Virus record (IMG/VR): IMGVR_UViG_3300024280_000009
Location: 1 to 37,718 of that record
Origin: a virus
Strand: one strand, 5' to 3'
DNA: 37,718 bases
A model generated the notes under the pieces. That model was not told the origin of the DNA. It searched no databases and saw only the letters and a program-made list of their open reading frames with translations. Positions 27,542 through 37,718 of the stretch are shown here, in pieces (the first letter of the stretch is position 1; each line of letters begins with the position of its first letter). Made by a program: the position numbers and the translations under genes.

Positions 27542-28038
27542 TTAGTCATTTCCTCAGCAGCAGCTAGGTCTAGATCACCGCAGGAGTAGGCTTCAAACTT
27601 ACGAGCAACCTCAATGACAAAATCGGCGTACTCTTCAATGCTGCCCGGAGTGACATCCTCGCCACGTAAGTAGTTGTCTGTAGCTTTCACAGCGTTAGTG
27701 ATGGAGTTCTGCCGCACAATTGCTCGATCGCCGTGTAGTGGAGGAATAGGGAACACCTTGCTAGGAGGGCTATAGGAGGGCTTAGAACCGCCTGCAACAG
27801 CACCAACTGGTGCAGGTGCACCCTCACCCTTAGCTAGCAGTCGAACGCTTGCCATGTCAATGTTCTTACCGTAGGTGTTCTCTGTATATTGGAAATCTAC
27901 AGTGTCACCAATCTTGAATGTAGGCTTCTTGAATCCATAGCTGAAACGCTCACCACCAGCATGTACGGTGTACGCTGGCTTAGGGCCAAACTTGGTGGTT
28001 ACTTCTTTAGTTGTGATGTTTTCAATGATGTAGCTCAT
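27538..28038 (-). CDS. Probable single-stranded DNA-binding protein (OB-fold)
   Basis: A 166-residue protein between polymerase and nuclease. The N-terminal ~70 residues look like an OB-fold: SYIIENITTKEVTTKFGPKP, then YTVHAGGERFSYGFKKPTFK and IGDTVDFQYTENTYGKN. A Pro/Gly/Ala linker (residues 72-95) follows, then HGDRAIVRQNSITNAVKATD, a segment recurring in phage SSB-like proteins, and an acidic C-terminus (DLDLAAAEEMTK). An SSB role fits its position and acidic tail. Start in an ATGA overlap with the polymerase stop, with AGAGGAAAT upstream. Confidence 0.68.
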   Translation of the reverse strand: MSYIIENITTKEVTTKFGPKPAYTVHAGGERFSYGFKKPTFKIGDTVDFQYTENTYGKNIDMASVRLLAKGEGAPAPVGAVAGGSKPSYSPPSKVFPIPPLHGDRAIVRQNSITNAVKATDNYLRGEDVTPGSIEEYADFVIEVARKFEAYSCGDLDLAAAEEMTK

Positions 28039-29933
28039 GCTTCAATTTCCTCTTTGTCTTGCCAGTTAATTCCTGCTTCCACGCCAACACCTAGCTTGCA
28101 TGGAAAGTCAATGTTGAAGATTGCTTTGAGTTGTTCTGGAGCACTCTCCAACGTCTTACGTGCTAGTGTTGCAACACTGTACAGCATATCTTTAGGTACG
28201 TCAAGTACCACAGAATCATGCACAGTCATTACTAGTTTCGCTTTCTCTGCGTAGCCAGCTTCTTCTAAATTACGTAGCAGAATGCCAACCATCATAGGTA
28301 CAACGTCACCAGTAGCAAAGCCCTGAATGGGCCAGTTCTTTAGTTCTGTAGGACTGAATGACAATCCACCTTTGTATTCGCTAGGATACTTGTTAAAGAT
28401 GTAATGTCGTCCTGTAGGACTGCTGTGAAAGTAAGTGTACTGGGGGCCAGCTTTATCTGGATCATAACTTACAACAGCTTCCTTCTCTGCTTTAGCCACT
28501 ATTTCTTCATGGTAGCGTTTGACTCCTTTGTATCGGTTGTAGAATGTGTTAATGAATCTCTTAGCAGTTGCTCTATCACAACCACTCTGCGCCATAAGTG
28601 TAGACGCTCCGCCTCCGTAAACGAGTAGAAAGCTAAATCGTTTAAAGGGCTTCCGTTCTTTGTCAGTTGGATACCGACCATACATCTCCTTGTACAACTC
28701 TCTGTGCATGTCCCTACCGTTATTAATATCGTCAATGAGTTGTTGGTCATTGGCAAGGTAGGCCAGTGCAACCATCTCTAGCTGACTGTAGTCAAGTTCC
28801 AATATGTTGCCGTCACTGCCATAACGAGACACATACGCTCGCTTAACGTCACCTGTGTCTGTTTGGTTTTGCAGGTTTGGGTTGGTTGAAGATAGCCGTC
28901 CTGTCTTGGTTGCACAATGGTTAAGGTTTGGATAGATGTTGTCATCTGGAAATCGTAGTGATACCAGCCCTTCATAATAGGTGTCTTTGATCTTGGCGTA
29001 CTCACGTATCTTCAATAACTCTTTTGCAATGTCATCACCCTTGTCTACAAGTTGTTTCAATACACTGTCGTCTGTTGAATAGTAGCCACTCTTACCAAGT
29101 TCACCAATGGGTTCGTACTTGCCTTTTACCTCACGCGTCTTCTCTACGTTCTTGTACTTGTCCTTACCATTCTTATACTTACCAACAAGTTCACGCACCA
29201 CACACTTCTCTTGACCACCAAAGAAATACAGAGACAGTTGCTTAGGGCTAGCTGTGTCTAAGAATGGTTCTGCACTGGCAACTTTCGTTTGTGCCATGAG
29301 TAGATCAAAACCATATGCATCACGCTGTTTCTCTACATAGTTCCAATCTACACGCATACCATTACGGTTCATCTCAATAGTTGCACGTAACGCATCCATC
29401 TGTGTGAACATCAATGGCAAGATGTCTAGACCTTCTGCTTCTGCCCACTGTGCTTCAAAGATGGCAGCAGTGTTCTCTACGTCACCCTTCAAATAGTCTA
29501 GCAGTTCCTCCTTAGGAATGTCTTCAGTTTGTACACCAGCCTTCCAATAGGCTTTAATCTTGTCATCCTTCAGTGCGTGTTTGCCAATGTACTCGGCTGT
29601 AAGTTCGTCCAAGCTAGCGTACAAGTGCTTCTGACCACTGAGTAAGTAGGCAGCTAGCTGTGTATCCCAGATACGTGGCAGCTTGTTACTAGTATCACGA
29701 TAGATGTACAGCAGGTCAAACTTAACGTTGTGCCCAATGACTAAATCAGCAGTGTCGCATAGTGTCTGCAAGGGTAGTAGGTTTAGCCCTACCTTGTCGT
29801 AATTATAGCCGTATGTACCTCCAATAACGTGTGTACCCCATGCAATGACCTTGTTACCACGCCACATAGGATTGCCACTGTTGTTGCCAACTGGACACCG
29901 AATGGTTGTCTCAAGGTCAATTACTAGGTTCAT
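28035..29933 (-). CDS. Family A DNA polymerase with 3'-5' exonuclease domain
   Basis: A replicative polymerase of 632 residues. Exonuclease motifs: VIDLETT (D6, E8), IGHNVKFDLLYIY and the later LLDYLKGDVENTAAIF. Polymerase motifs: A, LELDYSQLEMVALAYLAND; B, ERKPFKRFSFLLVYGGG; C, LVMTVHDSVVLDVP. The residue equivalent to E. coli Pol I F762 / T7 Y526 is F435. The N-terminal 5'-nuclease of bacterial Pol I is absent. Start: the ATG at 29933 (GGAAG five bases upstream) in an ATGA overlap with the helicase stop; an ATG at 29945 is also in frame. It presumably works with the adjacent helicase, primase and SSB. The processivity factor is not evident. Confidence 0.94.
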   Translation of the reverse strand: MNLVIDLETTIRCPVGNNSGNPMWRGNKVIAWGTHVIGGTYGYNYDKVGLNLLPLQTLCDTADLVIGHNVKFDLLYIYRDTSNKLPRIWDTQLAAYLLSGQKHLYASLDELTAEYIGKHALKDDKIKAYWKAGVQTEDIPKEELLDYLKGDVENTAAIFEAQWAEAEGLDILPLMFTQMDALRATIEMNRNGMRVDWNYVEKQRDAYGFDLLMAQTKVASAEPFLDTASPKQLSLYFFGGQEKCVVRELVGKYKNGKDKYKNVEKTREVKGKYEPIGELGKSGYYSTDDSVLKQLVDKGDDIAKELLKIREYAKIKDTYYEGLVSLRFPDDNIYPNLNHCATKTGRLSSTNPNLQNQTDTGDVKRAYVSRYGSDGNILELDYSQLEMVALAYLANDQQLIDDINNGRDMHRELYKEMYGRYPTDKERKPFKRFSFLLVYGGGASTLMAQSGCDRATAKRFINTFYNRYKGVKRYHEEIVAKAEKEAVVSYDPDKAGPQYTYFHSSPTGRHYIFNKYPSEYKGGLSFSPTELKNWPIQGFATGDVVPMMVGILLRNLEEAGYAEKAKLVMTVHDSVVLDVPKDMLYSVATLARKTLESAPEQLKAIFNIDFPCKLGVGVEAGINWQDKEEIEA

Positions 29934-31195
29934 CTTGTCTTCCATTTAGAAACATAACGTGCCTTTGCAGGTTCAATTTCTACCTCGAAACATCCATGTC
30001 TGTGTGCCTCTAGTGTGTCAGGCCCACCGAACAGTTTGTTCTTTGGTACGTGAATGAATCGTTGCAAATCCATGCCGGGTTCATTACTCTTGCCAATTGT
30101 GACAATGGCATCAGCTTCACCAATCTTGTCGGTCTTACTACCTCGTAGTTGGTTCATCTGAATCCACTTCTCACCCTCACCTGTGCCGTCCACTTGGCTA
30201 ATAGCAATGACTGGACAATATTCCTTTGCAACATCTCGTGCCCACTCATACAGCTTACCGATTCGTAGGTCTTCCCTAACTTCATAATCGAATCCGTGTA
30301 CTTTGTCAAGTTGGTCGAAAATAATTAGACCGGGCTTAAACTCTTTGAACAACATGCTTATCTTGTTCACGGTCTTGATGCCGCTGTCGTCATCTAATAT
30401 CAGAAACCTGTCACCACCAGCCGCTGTGAACAGTGCTTCGTAGGTTGCAGGATCAGCTAGCAATTCGCTACTAGTAACTTGTGACGTGGCTTGAATGACA
30501 CGCATCATAACCTTGTTGCTAGCCTCTTCGTTGTTGATCCAAATGACATGCTCATCAGGTTGTAGCTGACTCATCATGTAGCTGGCTTCGCTAGCTGTGA
30601 ATGTTGTCTTGCCTGTCTCAGGTCGTGCTGCAATGATGACAAAATCACCTTTGCGTAGTGGGCCTAGACTTACGTTTAGTTCCTTTAGCCTCCAAGATAA
30701 GCCCCCACTAGCCACGACACCAGAAAGATAGTCAAGGGATGGCTTAACAAATACTTCGTCTTTCTCAACACTTGCACCAATTTCTTTCTTGTAATGATTG
30801 AGCATCTCTTCAATAGATAGCAAGTCACCACCATGACCTGTACCAATCTTCAGACACACATCGTAAATCTGCGTAGCATAATCTGTCTCAATGAGTTTAG
30901 CTAGCAGTGCTTTTGTGATTGGTGGCGGCTTGTCAAGTGCCTCCTTCAAGTTGTCGAATGCAATTTCATATGTTGCAGGGTCTTTAATCTTCTTACCCTT
31001 AACAATGAAAAAGAATGTGCGAAACTCTCGGAAGTCAATGGTTGTACGTGCAGGATAGTTGTCCCAATATTCTCCTAGCACATTGAAAATCTCCAACGTA
31101 ATTGGCGATACGTTGTGCTTCTTAACATGTTCTTTGAATCGCTGGTAGTCTACCTTGTTACTAGTAACTGCCAACAGATCAATGTCGTAACTCAT
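29930..31195 (-). CDS. DnaB-like replicative helicase
   Basis: A 421-residue RecA-fold helicase. A predicted helical N-terminal domain (residues 1-150) precedes GPLRKGDFVIIAARPETGKT (Walker A, with K196), VIWINNEEASNKVMMRVIQA, and the Walker B region PGLIIFDQLDKVHGFD. Later AISQVDGTGEGEKWIQMNQL and RGSKTDKIGEADAIVTIGKS match the sensor and arginine-rich motifs of DnaB-type helicases. It would unwind DNA ahead of the polymerase encoded next. Unlike T7 gp4, no primase is fused. GGAGTTGTA precedes the ATG, which overlaps the primase stop (TAATG). Confidence 0.9.
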   Translation of the reverse strand: MSYDIDLLAVTSNKVDYQRFKEHVKKHNVSPITLEIFNVLGEYWDNYPARTTIDFREFRTFFFIVKGKKIKDPATYEIAFDNLKEALDKPPPITKALLAKLIETDYATQIYDVCLKIGTGHGGDLLSIEEMLNHYKKEIGASVEKDEVFVKPSLDYLSGVVASGGLSWRLKELNVSLGPLRKGDFVIIAARPETGKTTFTASEASYMMSQLQPDEHVIWINNEEASNKVMMRVIQATSQVTSSELLADPATYEALFTAAGGDRFLILDDDSGIKTVNKISMLFKEFKPGLIIFDQLDKVHGFDYEVREDLRIGKLYEWARDVAKEYCPVIAISQVDGTGEGEKWIQMNQLRGSKTDKIGEADAIVTIGKSNEPGMDLQRFIHVPKNKLFGGPDTLEAHRHGCFEVEIEPAKARYVSKWKTR

Positions 31196-32028
31196 TACAA
31201 CTCCATTTCTTTTAATATATCCAGATCAATCTCCTTCGGCTGATGGTTGAACACTGCACTGATGTTAGGTATTAGTGGACTAACATCTACAAACAGCTTA
31301 CGTGCTGCTGTGTGTCCTGCAACATCATCATCTAGCCATAACACTACTCTCTCATACCGTAGTGCAACTTTCTTCAACGCCTCTCCATCCAACTTAGTTC
31401 CCAACAAACACAAGGTTGGAAACCCTGCCATATGTAGCTTATAACTACTTAATAAATCTTCTACAACTACTAATGGTTTATTATCTTTAACTATAGTTGC
31501 ATTATCTAAATAACTATATCTTTGTTTACTATAAGTAAGATATTTAGGTTTCTTATTATAACGCCTAACTTGGCAACCTACAATACCACCACTCACACCA
31601 CTGAAAATTGGTAGCACAATGCCGTCTTCGGATTCTGTAATGTGATAGCCACTGCATTTAGGTTGATTGAATCCATATTGTGCCAGCCACAGTTGGCCCT
31701 CAATTGCAAACCTATCATAACTTGTTTCTTTTGTCAACTCGGTGTGTGTAGGTAGACGCGCACCTCTAAGAGATACCATAACTCTGGTATCTTCTTTAAT
31801 GCGCTTAATTGTCTCCTTCGGTCGATAATAGCCGCTATCTCCACAGTTATGGCAGTGCCATAGGTAGGCTCCATCTACATTCTTAACATACAAACGTTGC
31901 TTATTGTCAACACCTGCTGGACAATCTTCGTGGTTATACTTGCCTTGTTGTCCTTCATCAAGCTCCTCAAAGTCAGGTGCATTACCTGTAAGTACAGCCA
32001 ACGCTTGTTGTCCATAGTGTGTTGTCAT
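31195..32028 (-). CDS. DNA primase (zinc-binding plus TOPRIM)
   Basis: A protein of about 277 residues. A zinc-binding part has C36 (HEDCP), then C59 and C62 in LWHCHNCGDSGY. A TOPRIM domain follows: PLVVVEDLLSSYKLHMAGFP (E190) and ERVVLWLDDDVAGHTAARKL (D233-D235). This is the T7 gp4A N-terminal layout, here on a separate gene. The protein should make RNA primers for lagging-strand synthesis. Start: the ATG at 32028, in an ATGA overlap with the deaminase stop and with GGAGCACAC upstream. The stretch around 31440-31560 is more AT-rich than its neighbours. Confidence 0.87.
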   Translation of the reverse strand: MTTHYGQQALAVLTGNAPDFEELDEGQQGKYNHEDCPAGVDNKQRLYVKNVDGAYLWHCHNCGDSGYYRPKETIKRIKEDTRVMVSLRGARLPTHTELTKETSYDRFAIEGQLWLAQYGFNQPKCSGYHITESEDGIVLPIFSGVSGGIVGCQVRRYNKKPKYLTYSKQRYSYLDNATIVKDNKPLVVVEDLLSSYKLHMAGFPTLCLLGTKLDGEALKKVALRYERVVLWLDDDVAGHTAARKLFVDVSPLIPNISAVFNHQPKEIDLDILKEMEL

Positions 32029-32327
32029 GTGTGCTCCACAATCTTGATGTTGGTCATGCCTATAATTTGATGACAGACCTTGCATGGCTTTGCTAGCAAA
32101 GGCCTACCACTTTTACCATAACGTGTTACTAGTATGCGATGTGCTTTGTTCCAATCACATTTAAGCAATGCTGCCACCTCTGCATGTAGAAACACCTTAT
32201 GCGGCTCACCCACTGATGCCGCTATACGGGCTTGCAATGGGTGTGTTTTAACGTAGGAGTTCTGACCTGTAGCCAGCAATCTCCCACGTTTGTCATATAC
32301 AAATGCACTGACAGTTTGTTGACACAT
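32025..32327 (-). CDS. Zinc-dependent cytidine/deoxycytidylate-type deaminase
   Basis: A 100-residue deaminase. Zinc ligands and catalytic Glu appear as HAE (H48, E50 in KVFLHAEVAALLK) and PCKVC (C82, C85 in AKPCKVCHQII). The N-terminal SAFVYDKRGRLLATGQNSYV gives the first strands of the fold. At 100 residues it is compact compared with dCMP deaminases (about 150-190), so the substrate could be a nucleotide, nucleoside or base. In an arm with ThyX and RNR, making dUMP from dCMP is the natural role (inference). Confidence 0.8.
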   Translation of the reverse strand: MCQQTVSAFVYDKRGRLLATGQNSYVKTHPLQARIAASVGEPHKVFLHAEVAALLKCDWNKAHRILVTRYGKSGRPLLAKPCKVCHQIIGMTNIKIVEHT

Positions 32328-33376
32328 TACTTGCCAAACACTTTAGTGTACAACTCTTTGACACTCTTGCTGTCTTCAGCAGTCAGCTTCTCAAGGAATG
32401 ACACTTGAAGTGCATACTCCACATCGTAACGCTTCTGCTTACGTGCCCAATTGATTAGGGTACGTGGCGACATTGTAAGACCAATCTTACCACTCTCATA
32501 CGCTGAACGTACAAGGTTAGCCAGCCTCACCATGTCATGCGCTACCTTCTGCTCAACATCACTCTTACTAGTAATGATGTTAACCTCATGTGCTTGCGAC
32601 AGATAGCCTAGCTTGATGGTATTGGTGAATCGGTCAATGGTTGCAGTGTTCTGCACACCTACACCTGAGAATGCACCAGTGATGTCGCCCTGCCCAACAG
32701 TGTTGCCAGCAAACACTAGCCTGAAGTTGTCGTTAGGAATAATGGTGCGGTCTTCGCTAGTACCGGGCTTCTCTTTGAGATAGAGATAGCCACCGTCTTC
32801 CAGCAGGTTCTGCATACCCATAGCAATCTCAGCAGGCATGAGTTCCCACTCGTCAACCAGGCACACAGCGCCATACTTAGCTGCTTCAGTAATTGCACCG
32901 TCTTCCCACACAGTTGCACCACCACGTACAACAAGTGTACCAAACAGACTAGATGATTCCACATCACCAGACATATTGATGCGAATGAATGGTCGATTCA
33001 GCTTAGCACACACATACTTAACCAGCGATGATTTACCGCTACCAGTAGGGCCAGTGATAAGGGTCTTGTCGCCATCCATCATACCTGCTACTAGTAATGC
33101 TGCTTCGTCTTGTTGCACTACATAGTCAGGATCAACATCAGGGATGAGTCGGTCAATGTCTGGAATGCCTGTCTTGTTGAGAACAAACACACCAAAGTCA
33201 CCAAACTTAGGCTTGTAACCAAACACATCACTGAACCAAACTTGACCATCTTCCAGAGATACGTGCTTGGTAACAGGCGGTGGCTCAGGTGTAGCAGATT
33301 TAGATTCAGGTGCTTTCTTGCCGAGATGTGCAGCAATGGCTTTTGCAACGCGATCATTCAAGTCAGGTGTTGTCAT
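32327..33376 (-). CDS. CobS-like / MoxR-type AAA+ ATPase
   Basis: A protein of about 349 residues. A Pro-rich N-terminal linker precedes DPDYVVQQDEAALLVAGMMD, which resembles the start of CobS proteins. Walker A is GPTGSGKSS (109-117), Walker B VCLVDEWE (D175, E176), and sensor I lies in FRLVFAGNTVG. AFSGVGVQNTATIDRFTNTI gives the arginine-finger-like region. Such ATPases partner VWA proteins to remodel targets; CobS with CobT drives cobalt insertion into the B12 ring. The next upstream gene encodes a VWA protein, so the pair is intact. It carries no CobN. I chose ATG at 33376 (GGAGTATTTAAC). Confidence 0.86.
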   Translation of the reverse strand: MTTPDLNDRVAKAIAAHLGKKAPESKSATPEPPPVTKHVSLEDGQVWFSDVFGYKPKFGDFGVFVLNKTGIPDIDRLIPDVDPDYVVQQDEAALLVAGMMDGDKTLITGPTGSGKSSLVKYVCAKLNRPFIRINMSGDVESSSLFGTLVVRGGATVWEDGAITEAAKYGAVCLVDEWELMPAEIAMGMQNLLEDGGYLYLKEKPGTSEDRTIIPNDNFRLVFAGNTVGQGDITGAFSGVGVQNTATIDRFTNTIKLGYLSQAHEVNIITSKSDVEQKVAHDMVRLANLVRSAYESGKIGLTMSPRTLINWARKQKRYDVEYALQVSFLEKLTAEDSKSVKELYTKVFGK

Positions 33377-33377
33377 G

Positions 33378-35075
33378 TTAAATACTCCGGTCAATGATGG
33401 AGAGAATTGTAGGGGACAGTTGGTTAAGATCGTTTACTACTACGTTCTTTTTATAAAAACGAGTAACATTAGTATCCATAATGCCAATACCATAAACGTC
33501 TACTCCAAGTTGTTCTGCCGTGTCAATTGCATGTTTAGTGTACCAGTCAACGTTACCAGCATGGTCACGGCCAGCAGGACTGCCGTCTGACAATACTACC
33601 AGCACTTTGCGGTGCTCCTTGCGTCCTATCAGCTTACTAGTAGCATATGCTACAGCATCACCGTCACTGTTCTGCCATAGTGCACCACTCACTTTGTCAA
33701 ACCTGTTAATGAGTTCTTGTTGCGGTGTCTTCTCGCCAAACTCTGAGAACAGCCACACTAAAGGATATTCCTCTTCCACAGTGTTGCTAAACCCATAGAT
33801 TGAATAGGCAATGTTTAGGGGCTTCAGTGCTTCTGCAAATGCACCAGCACCAGCACACGCCATGTCAAACTTGCGACCAGACATACTACCACTGCAATCT
33901 ACCAGCAGACATACAGCAGTGTCTGTTGTGTCACTTACAACACGCTGACGAAACACCTTGGTAGAAAACTTGTCGTCACCACTGATGATGCGATGCAGAC
34001 TACCATTGTGCAGCTTGCCTTTAGTCTTGCCATACTCATACCTGTCACGGCTACGTGTCTGCAATTTAAGGCGTAACTTGTTAGCCATTGGTCTAGCGTT
34101 ACTAGTAATGTAGTTGCTAACATCATGCTTGTGCATGTATCCAATGTGCATGTGTTCGTCTACAATTTTAGGCATAGCCTTGTCAAAGTTGACGATGACA
34201 TACTCATTAGCATTAGGGATAGCATATGCGCCCTTCTCAATGGGTTGAGCTGTCATGTGAATGCCTGTGCGCGTAGGCTTATGCTCGTGCCCCATAGCTT
34301 TCATTAGCTTGTCAACATTGATTAAACGGTCTACATCGTCGTCAATGGGCTTACCCTCACCGTCACCCTTGTCACCACCTTTGCCCTTGCCTGTGCCGTC
34401 GTCACCCTCACCCTTGCCCTTGTATTCTTCAGGGTCTTGATCGTATAGGTCTTTAAGGATACGCTCTGCCAAATCCATAACTTGTGCAGCTTCACCATGC
34501 TCACGTACTGCAATGAGTTCTTCGCTGTACTTATCCAGCTTAGCTAGCCGTGTACGTGCATCATCATCAATGGCTGTTGACATCTGTGCCTGTGCTTCTA
34601 CGCTTGATGCAATCCAGTCACGCAAACTAGCGTCCCACACAAACAGAGGCAGTGTCAGTAGCTGCTGTTCTCGCAGTTCTTTGTCTGTGCTTGATGTGTG
34701 TTTCTTGATGTCGTCAGCATACACATACCAGAAATCATTACTAATAACACGGTCACCTGCATACTCCATATCGTTGCGATAGTCAATGCGATGATCTTCA
34801 ATTAGATTGTTGATAAGGGCCAACAAACCGCCGGGTTTTACTTTATTTAAAAATGTAAAGTCACTGTGCACCACATGGCTTGTCTCATGCTTTACAAAGT
34901 AACGCATACGGGTTAGCCACTCTTCGCTGGTTTTGCTTGTAATTGCAGGCAGATAGATGGTTTTACCGTCAGTTCGTGGTGTTGAGTCTGGTTTGTCCCA
35001 CTGCACGTTAACACCGCTATTAGTAGCACACGCTGCTACGTATGTCTCAAACTGTTGAACGTCAAGTAGATTCAT
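33378..35075 (-). CDS. CobT-like VWA protein with N-terminal HExxH domain
   Basis: A 565-residue protein. The N-terminal domain has RYFVKHETSHVVHSDFTFLN (H63, E64, H67) and NLIEDHRIDYRND (E93), the layout of a zinc-peptidase-like domain found in some VWA proteins. The middle is an acidic, Gly/Lys-rich linker (residues ~210-245; GKGEGDDGTGKGKGGDKGDG). The C-terminus is a VWA domain with a MIDAS site: AVCLLVDCSGSMSGRKFDMA (DxSxS), then YSIYGFSNTVEEEYP and KVLVVLSDGSPAGRDH. The acidic linker plus C-terminal MIDAS domain is characteristic of CobT-type cobaltochelatase subunits. A GAGGAAGC ribosome-binding site precedes the ATG. It should act with the CobS-like ATPase next door. Confidence 0.84.
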   Translation of the reverse strand: MNLLDVQQFETYVAACATNSGVNVQWDKPDSTPRTDGKTIYLPAITSKTSEEWLTRMRYFVKHETSHVVHSDFTFLNKVKPGGLLALINNLIEDHRIDYRNDMEYAGDRVISNDFWYVYADDIKKHTSSTDKELREQQLLTLPLFVWDASLRDWIASSVEAQAQMSTAIDDDARTRLAKLDKYSEELIAVREHGEAAQVMDLAERILKDLYDQDPEEYKGKGEGDDGTGKGKGGDKGDGEGKPIDDDVDRLINVDKLMKAMGHEHKPTRTGIHMTAQPIEKGAYAIPNANEYVIVNFDKAMPKIVDEHMHIGYMHKHDVSNYITSNARPMANKLRLKLQTRSRDRYEYGKTKGKLHNGSLHRIISGDDKFSTKVFRQRVVSDTTDTAVCLLVDCSGSMSGRKFDMACAGAGAFAEALKPLNIAYSIYGFSNTVEEEYPLVWLFSEFGEKTPQQELINRFDKVSGALWQNSDGDAVAYATSKLIGRKEHRKVLVVLSDGSPAGRDHAGNVDWYTKHAIDTAEQLGVDVYGIGIMDTNVTRFYKKNVVVNDLNQLSPTILSIIDRSI

Positions 35076-36271: not shown

Positions 36272-36784
36272 TTATTCCTGAGAATTCTTGGCTTGCAGGA
36301 TGGAGTCTGCCAACAGTGCCACCTTACCCCACAGTGTAGCGAGTTCGTCTTGCGTGAACACCTCACGTGTCTCACTGTTCCACTTCTTTTCTGCACCATC
36401 AAGGAATGCAAGCATCCGGTCAAAGTCACTCTTGGCTTCTTGCAATTCACTCTTACCCTTGGGCATTGGATTGCCAGCATCATCGCTCTCGATGTTGCCA
36501 CCGTCGTCACGCTTCCACACGTCAACACCGTTACTAATAGCTTTCCCGATGACAGATTTTGCCGACCGAAGGGAGTTCTTTTCTTCCTTGGACAATTCTT
36601 TCATGGCTTCCAGTTCTGCCACTACTCGCTTGTGTTCCTCGTCCAGTTTTTCCACGTTATCCGGTGCACATGGATAGCAGGTAGCTCGCACATAATTGGC
36701 CCATACACCCTGCCCTGCCTCACGGCTGATGTCTTTACCCTCTTTGGCTTGTTGCAGTGCTACGCGCAGTTGATTTTCAAACAT
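36272..36784 (-). CDS. Hypothetical protein, first gene of the leftward operon
   Basis: A 170-residue charged, mostly helical protein: MFENQLRVALQQAKEGKDIS, ATCYPCAPDNVEKLDEEHKR, then a predicted coiled coil VVAELEAMKELSKEEKNSLR and KSELQEAKSDFDRMLAFLDG. It has no membrane segment and no enzyme motif. AAAGGAATCATC precedes the ATG. As the promoter-proximal early gene it is a candidate host-takeover protein, on position alone. A variant TTACTAATAG motif lies within it, and TTACTAGTAA lies at its 3' end. Confidence 0.7.
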   Translation of the reverse strand: MFENQLRVALQQAKEGKDISREAGQGVWANYVRATCYPCAPDNVEKLDEEHKRVVAELEAMKELSKEEKNSLRSAKSVIGKAISNGVDVWKRDDGGNIESDDAGNPMPKGKSELQEAKSDFDRMLAFLDGAEKKWNSETREVFTQDELATLWGKVALLADSILQAKNSQE

Positions 36785-37022: not shown

Positions 37023-37055
37023 TATTTTACATGCGAAGCTTACATGAAACTTACA
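37023..37055 (-). promoter_or_regulatory. Promoter-like repeat, copy 4 (closest to the first gene)
   Basis: On the minus strand: TGTAAG, five bases, TGTAAG, nine bases, then TAAAAT as -10-like hexamer. The same arrangement occurs three more times further right. The -10 is the least perfect of the four. Confidence 0.6.
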
Positions 37056-37122
37056 AAGAACATTTGTTGTCTTTTCACAACACCAGCATTCGGTACGATT
37101 ACCGCTTGCATCGTATGGCTTT

Positions 37123-37157
37123 CATTATACACATGAACCTTACACGAAACTTACAGG
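37123..37157 (-). promoter_or_regulatory. Promoter-like repeat, copy 3
   Basis: TGTAAG, five bases, TGTAAG, nine bases, then a consensus TATAAT followed by G. There is no TTGACA-type -35. The paired TGTAAG boxes are 11 bp apart, one helical turn, upstream of the -10. Confidence 0.68.
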
Positions 37158-37217
37158 GATAGTCTGACAATTGAAAGTGACTATTTGTGTCTGGTGCACT
37201 GTTCGGTGCATGACTTT

Positions 37218-37253
37218 CATTATATGCCTGATTCTTACACCAAGCTTACAACT
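37218..37253 (-). promoter_or_regulatory. Promoter-like repeat, copy 2
   Basis: TGTAAG, five bases, TGTAAG, nine bases, TATAAT, with GAAAG after the -10 as in copy 3. Confidence 0.68.
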
Positions 37254-37322
37254 ACTTGTCAGGATGTGTTGCAAGATTACAACACCTTCGCTAACTAGGT
37301 TAGCTTCGCTGCCCATGCCTTC

Positions 37323-37358
37323 CATTATGCACCCAATCCTTACACCAAACTTACAACT
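37323..37358 (-). promoter_or_regulatory. Promoter-like repeat, copy 1 (outermost)
   Basis: TGTAAG, five bases, TGTAAG, nine bases, then CATAAT. Successive copies are about 95-105 bp apart. All point leftward into the early operon. Confidence 0.65.
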
Positions 37359-37371
37359 GAAGTGAGTACCT

Positions 37372-37426
37372 TAGTACGTATAAATATTGCCCCTATATAG
37401 AGGCCTTGCGGCCCCTAGTACGTATG
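37372..37426. repeat. Direct repeat TAGTACGTAT flanking a TTGC-loop hairpin
   Basis: TAGTACGTAT occurs at 37372-37381 and 37417-37426. Between them a stem (37399-37405 with 37410-37416, one mismatch) closes a TTGC loop, which reads GCAA on the minus strand, the same tetraloop as at 36235. The repeats contain the palindrome TACGTA. A protein-binding or origin-related site is possible. Confidence 0.5.
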
Positions 37427-37430
37427 TATT

Positions 37431-37718
37431 CAATTATTATTAATAACATATTGAGATAATGTTAGTTAATATATTAAATAATAGTTTAATATAATATATA
37501 AATAGTTGATTTAAATAAAGATATATAATATAATATATATTAATATAATATACTGGGGGTAGTATATATATAGTTGTATTTGTAATATACTTATATATTA
37601 ACTATAACTATATATAGTAGTATATATATAATATAATAATATATAATATAGTATAAATATATATAATAATAAAGTAATAATATAATATATACTATATAAT
37701 AATAATATATTATACTCC
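37431..37718. other. Extremely AT-rich non-coding tract at the right end
   Basis: About 290 bases that are almost only A and T, with no open reading frame of note. A single GGGGGT stands in the middle, flanked by the inverted repeat ATATACT (37548-37554) and AGTATAT (37561-37567). The tract has many TATAAT-like hexamers, so promoter prediction is meaningless here. It could be a replication origin or the junction between the two arms; it runs off the window. Confidence 0.6.

Follow-up and report, generated by a model that had tools for sequence, protein, structure and literature searches.

Predicted early promoters of a Zobellviridae-like podovirus carry paired boxes resembling SARP-type activator sites

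We found four tandem promoter units upstream of the replication genes of a Zobellviridae-like podovirus in which the usual -35 signal is replaced by a paired direct repeat that looks like the site of the SARP/AfsR family of bacterial activators, best known from antibiotic regulation. The same paired site is carried by unrelated environmental phages, which suggests that many viruses depend on the same kind of host switch. In Gammaproteobacteria, the site is linked to genes coding for an OmpR-like winged helix plus a BTAD domain, and hence the best reading seems to be a set of early promoters activated by a host SARP-type regulator, often linked to NACHT and TPR domains, although binding, transcription and the presence of such a regulator in the host of this phage are inferred.

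Four paired-box units point into the replication genes

The window analyzed is the whole stretch of 37,718 nucleotides of the IMG/VR record IMGVR_UViG_3300024280_000009. Exact TGTAAG-N5-TGTAAG boxes were found at 37055-37039, 37155-37139, 37250-37234 and 37355-37339, all on the minus strand, and each is followed after exactly 9 bp by a -10 hexamer: TAAAAT (37029-37024), TATAAT (37129-37124), TATAAT (37224-37219) and CATAAT (37329-37324). The copy nearest the genes (37024..37055) reads TGTAAG-TTTCA-TGTAAG-N9-TAAAAT, the second (37124..37155) TGTAAG-TTTCG-TGTAAG-N9-TATAAT, the third (37219..37250) TGTAAG-CTTGG-TGTAAG-N9-TATAAT, and the most upstream one (37324..37355) TGTAAG-TTTGG-TGTAAG-N9-CATAAT. 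Start-to-start spacing is 100, 95 and 105 bp. These are the only four exact copies of the paired box in the window, where 0.007 would be expected from base composition. The position where a -35 hexamer would be expected reads AAGTTT or similar. The four regularly spaced elements with an 11-bp direct repeat in place of a -35 box that had been described in the initial annotation are therefore real, although it did not mention that they lie on the minus strand, reading leftward into the replication genes, nor that two of the four -10 boxes deviate from TATAAT by one base.

The portal of this phage is about 48% identical over 97% to those of Roseobacter phage CRP-5, Lentibacter phages ICBM and Celeribacter phage P12053L, and it codes for CobS/CobT-like proteins and a family A DNA polymerase related to those of Vibrio phage ICP2. 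As in Zobellviridae, the genome has a divergent two-arm layout, with structural genes running rightward from the left end and replication genes running leftward from about 36.8 kb. The first ORF of the operon that the array would drive (36272..36784, minus strand) codes for 170 aa without a family match, and the early/replication genes downstream (28035..35075, minus strand) code for a CobT-like VWA protein, a CobS-like AAA protein, a deaminase-like protein, a primase, a DnaB-like helicase and DNA polymerase A. The phage has no tRNA genes, and no nucleotide relative was found in the phage collection searched.

Upstream of the array, positions 37380..37718 are very AT rich, with a low-complexity stretch of 88-92% A+T in the last 240 bp (37480-37718) at the contig end; since relatives have 73-81% A+T just upstream of their arrays, an AT-rich region there may be genuine. 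The spacers between the copies (37056..37323, minus strand) could each form hairpins in the transcript, with a fold z of about -3.1 to -1.6. The spacers in contigs L010, L013, L015, L023 and L092 (L denotes the stretches retrieved in our searches) can likewise form hairpins. Across the clade, 35 inter-copy spacers fold better than shuffles (mean z -1.10, P 8e-8), while 16 stretches after the last copy do not (mean z +0.40). The stem sequences differ from copy to copy. The transcripts may begin with protective hairpins, or the hairpins may serve something else.

The element is conserved in relatives and present in unrelated phages

Contigs with a related CobT gene carry two to five tandem copies in the same divergent gap, 69 to 163 bp apart and all pointing at the replication genes. 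Loss of the paired boxes with retention of the -10 in related phages had been named beforehand as an outcome that would refute the reading of the initial annotation, but relatives keep both. A scan of IMG/VR for the unit with its -10 gave 71 stretches, against 14 for a control in which the two hexamers were read backwards and the -10 was kept, and the core TGTAAGKTTCRTGTAAG was found in at least 119 stretches. However, changing the spacer to N6 gave 54 stretches with one match each; half-sites this AT-rich give a sizeable background, so counts alone are not decisive. In 102 dereplicated sites, the best -10 lies at +9 in 31 and at +10 in 28 (59 in total), against about 4.5 per offset when the downstream sequence was shuffled.

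The contigs include protein-sharing groups other than that of the window, such as podoviruses with a fused primase-helicase and another terminase (the L029 group), T5-like phages (L030 and L084, with a terminase 46-48% identical to Vibrio T5-like phages), D279-like podoviruses (L047 and L078) and a group of 53-57% G+C (L051, L079 and L080). Their different terminases and portals confirm that these lineages are unrelated, and a search for a protein shared across them gave only a broad cluster. A shared element across unrelated phage types points to shared host machinery.

Other arrangements of the site were also found in phage contigs. L245 (2672-2840), L263 (5555-5629) and L230 (10837 onward) contain runs of several tandem 11-mers (TGTAAGTTTCG-like) without a clear -10, which may be longer operators or replication related. 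In L207 (801-902), two direct TGTAAGGTT repeats are followed by two inverted ones, twice in 100 bp, as paired head-to-head operators. In a group of contigs with shared flanks (L209, L226, L241, L257 and L268), the pair lies about 40 bp upstream of a TTATCCACA/TGTGGA-like (DnaA-box-like) sequence.

In contrast, the full phage-type promoter with ATAAT at +10 is essentially absent from 84,980 prokaryote species genomes (8 scattered hits, two of them near-identical sequences in two Clostridia-type genomes), was not found in 50,697 phage records, and gave no meaningful match in plasmids. A near-identical GTGTAAGGTTTTTGTAAGGGYGGGTGTGATAATATG promoter-like sequence with the same geometry lies at L096:4413 and L099:7054, in two Clostridia-type genomes. 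Phages may carry near-ideal versions of sites that are weaker in chromosomes, or the hosts may be poorly sampled. Literature searches, restricted to open-licence papers, found no described match to the motif and no phage early promoters with SARP boxes.

The paired site is linked to BTAD genes in Gammaproteobacteria

In 369 Gammaproteobacteria genomes, the exact pair with a 5-base spacer occurs 85 times, and several genomes have 3-5 copies. Some of these sites stand directly before large regulators with a Trans_reg_C-like winged helix, and Pfam identified their C-terminal part as BTAD, the SARP activator domain, with NACHT/AAA_16 and MalT-like TPR regions in the long forms. A search for BTAD in the same genomes showed that 20 of the 85 pairs lie within 350 bp of a BTAD gene, against 0.12 expected (Poisson P about 3e-37), whereas none of the 72 pairs with a 6-base spacer lies near one of these BTAD genes (Fisher P 2.5e-6). 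The linkage thus depends on the one-turn phase. Some sites belong to related genomes (G289, G033 and G181; G denotes Gammaproteobacteria genomes), so they are not all independent, and the BTAD search covered weak matches only in part, but neither changes the conclusion. About three quarters of the pairs are not beside a BTAD gene, and the bacterial sites mostly have other spacers (often nnATC) than the KTTCR of the phages.

The site is sometimes before the BTAD gene, as for autoregulation, and sometimes just after it, before the next gene, which is often a small or secreted protein. In three genomes, the pair directly precedes the BTAD gene itself and is followed by TATAAT or TATGCT at +10. 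Examples of the linkage to NACHT/TPR-BTAD genes are G289:C7:309232, G033:C19:111, G181:C20:33392 and G196:C5:37272, and the pair is a candidate operator for this regulator class. One of these proteins, a 252-aa bacterial protein (at L406), matches EmbR (2FEZ) and AfsR (8HVR) by sequence. Annotation of the regulators as defence systems with PADLOC gave only weak matches. No phage contig examined (2.2 million residues of translated frames) encodes the activator domain.

A possible mechanism of activation

SARPs are OmpR-like winged-helix proteins with a BTAD domain, and their sites are direct repeats 11 bp apart, with the 3' repeat 8 bp upstream of the -10 and the 5' repeat over the -35 (PMC4393881). 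Cryo-EM work on AfsR places two 11-bp repeats at -40 to -19 and shows the SARP dimer between the DNA and sigma region 4, which no longer needs a -35 (PMC10936776). The SARP-LAL protein PimR binds CGGCAAG heptamers with 4-bp spacers (PMC5930380), and NTGTAAG with 4-bp spacers is the same format. If transcription starts 7 bp after the -10, the 22-bp phage box covers about -39 to -18, and exactly -40 to -19 where the spacing is 10. The repeat period, the position of the box, the poor -35 and, for Gammaproteobacteria in general, the linkage to a winged-helix plus BTAD gene all agree with a SARP-type activated promoter.

Considering these data, we favor, with fair but not high confidence, a cluster of four tandem early promoters, each with a two-site operator for a host SARP-type activator, in many Gammaproteobacteria fused to a NACHT/AAA STAND NTPase and TPR repeats. 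By analogy with AfsR, two activator protomers would sit side by side on the repeats, give sigma region 4 a protein docking site in place of a -35, and recruit the host RNA polymerase to the -10, so that the replication genes would be transcribed at once from up to four starts. Our analysis shows the sites and their geometry, the conservation of their position and orientation in related phages, their presence in unrelated phage types, and the genomic linkage of the same operator to BTAD genes in bacteria. Binding, activation, the transcription starts and the possession of such a regulator by the host of this phage are inferences, since genomic linkage is not binding.

A bolder and only tentative possibility is that many unrelated environmental phages have converged on the operator of host STAND-type SARP regulators (NACHT-TPR-BTAD), so that the start of the lytic program is gated by a signal-sensing host switch, possibly one that responds to infection or stress. 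This would be a promoter class shared across phage families and defined by a host activator instead of a -35 box. The proposed SARP-type protein is a specific, testable identity for the activator of promoters that recur across environmental phages, and TGTAAG-N5-TGTAAG is a proposed operator for a large, little-studied class of bacterial regulators, the NACHT/TPR-BTAD proteins in Gammaproteobacteria. If true, whether an infection can start would depend on a host signaling protein, and the motif could be used to find early promoters, early genes and likely hosts of uncultured phages directly from sequence.

ALTERNATIVES

The initial annotation had suggested an activator of the PhoB/OmpR type, either a host regulator or one supplied by the phage, with replication iterons as another possibility, and this interpretation is partly supported. 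The architecture, a promoter array with an OmpR-type (winged-helix) activator site in place of the -35 and directed at early genes, agrees with our results, and a host activator is favored, but the protein proposed is probably the wrong one. A classical response regulator of the host, PhoB or another, remains the main alternative, although an unlikely one, in which the link to BTAD genes would reflect a similar but separate operator. Such regulators also bind 11-bp direct repeats next to the -10, the pho-like boxes of the same genomes contain one TGTAA half-site, and regulation of phage genes by host PhoB is known in cyanophages (PMC10976474). Orthologous chromosomal sites with three or four tandem half-sites, some mixing TGTAAG and TGTCA (G023:C134:23434, G176:C58:14904, G023:C160:39209 and G176:C104:56224), hint at possible crosstalk between this operator and pho boxes. 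However, the pho-like boxes found upstream of phoB in several of these genomes read TGTCAY-N5-TGTAAC or TGTCA-N6-TGTCA, while the window has TGTAAG twice, and the linkage of the exact operator to BTAD genes is strong and depends on the 11-bp phase.

It is very unlikely that the phage supplies its own activator, carried in the virion or made first. The element is very common in phages and rare in chromosomes, but no BTAD/winged-helix protein was found in any phage contig examined, no known DNA-binding regulator domain was found in the window ORFs scanned, and unrelated phage types would all need the same protein. Similarly doubtful is a repressor operator or a promoter with a cryptic -35: the repeats cover the -35 region, but there is no TTGACA-like hexamer 16-18 bp upstream of the -10, and box and -10 spacing are kept together, as expected for activation. 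Iterons of a replication origin are not supported in spite of the direct repeats in an AT-rich intergenic region and the longer runs of the 11-mer in L245 and L263, since every copy here has a -10 at fixed distance, all copies point the same way, the copy-to-copy spacing varies between relatives, and no replication initiator was recognized.

Comparison with known promoter systems

The closest systems are the SARP-regulated promoters of Streptomyces (AfsR/afsS, OtcR/oxy and the SARP-LAL PimR/pimM), which have two direct repeats 11 bp apart, the 3' repeat 8-9 bp upstream of the -10, the 5' repeat over the -35 region, no good -35, and an activator with an OmpR-like winged helix plus BTAD, sometimes with NTPase and TPR (PMC10936776, PMC4393881, PMC5930380). 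The sites described here are found in phages and Gammaproteobacteria rather than in actinomycete antibiotic clusters, their half-site is TGTAAG instead of, for example, CGGCAAG, the -10 is strong, and the SARP part is C-terminal in the large host proteins but N-terminal in AfsR. PhoB/OmpR-type class II promoters (pho box, PhoP box) share the direct repeats 11 bp apart replacing the -35, but differ in the half-site sequence, and no phosphorelay regulator is linked to our sites.

Tandem promoters at this place are already known, since three are annotated in the homologous gap before the early genes of Vibrio phage ICP2 (Zobellviridae), but as ordinary sigma-70 promoters (TTGACA-N15-17-TATAAT) with no 11-bp repeat boxes noted; the repeat boxes are what differs. 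In cyanophages, promoters under host PhoB (S-PM2d, P-SSM2 pstS) are also bound by a host activator (PMC10976474), but there a subset of genes responds to phosphate, while here the promoters stand in front of the replication operon, with an apparently different activator. Finally, the GacA/UvrY box has the same half-site TGTAAG (PMC8523701), but arranged as the inverted repeat TGTAAG-N6-CTTACA and not as a direct repeat near a -10.
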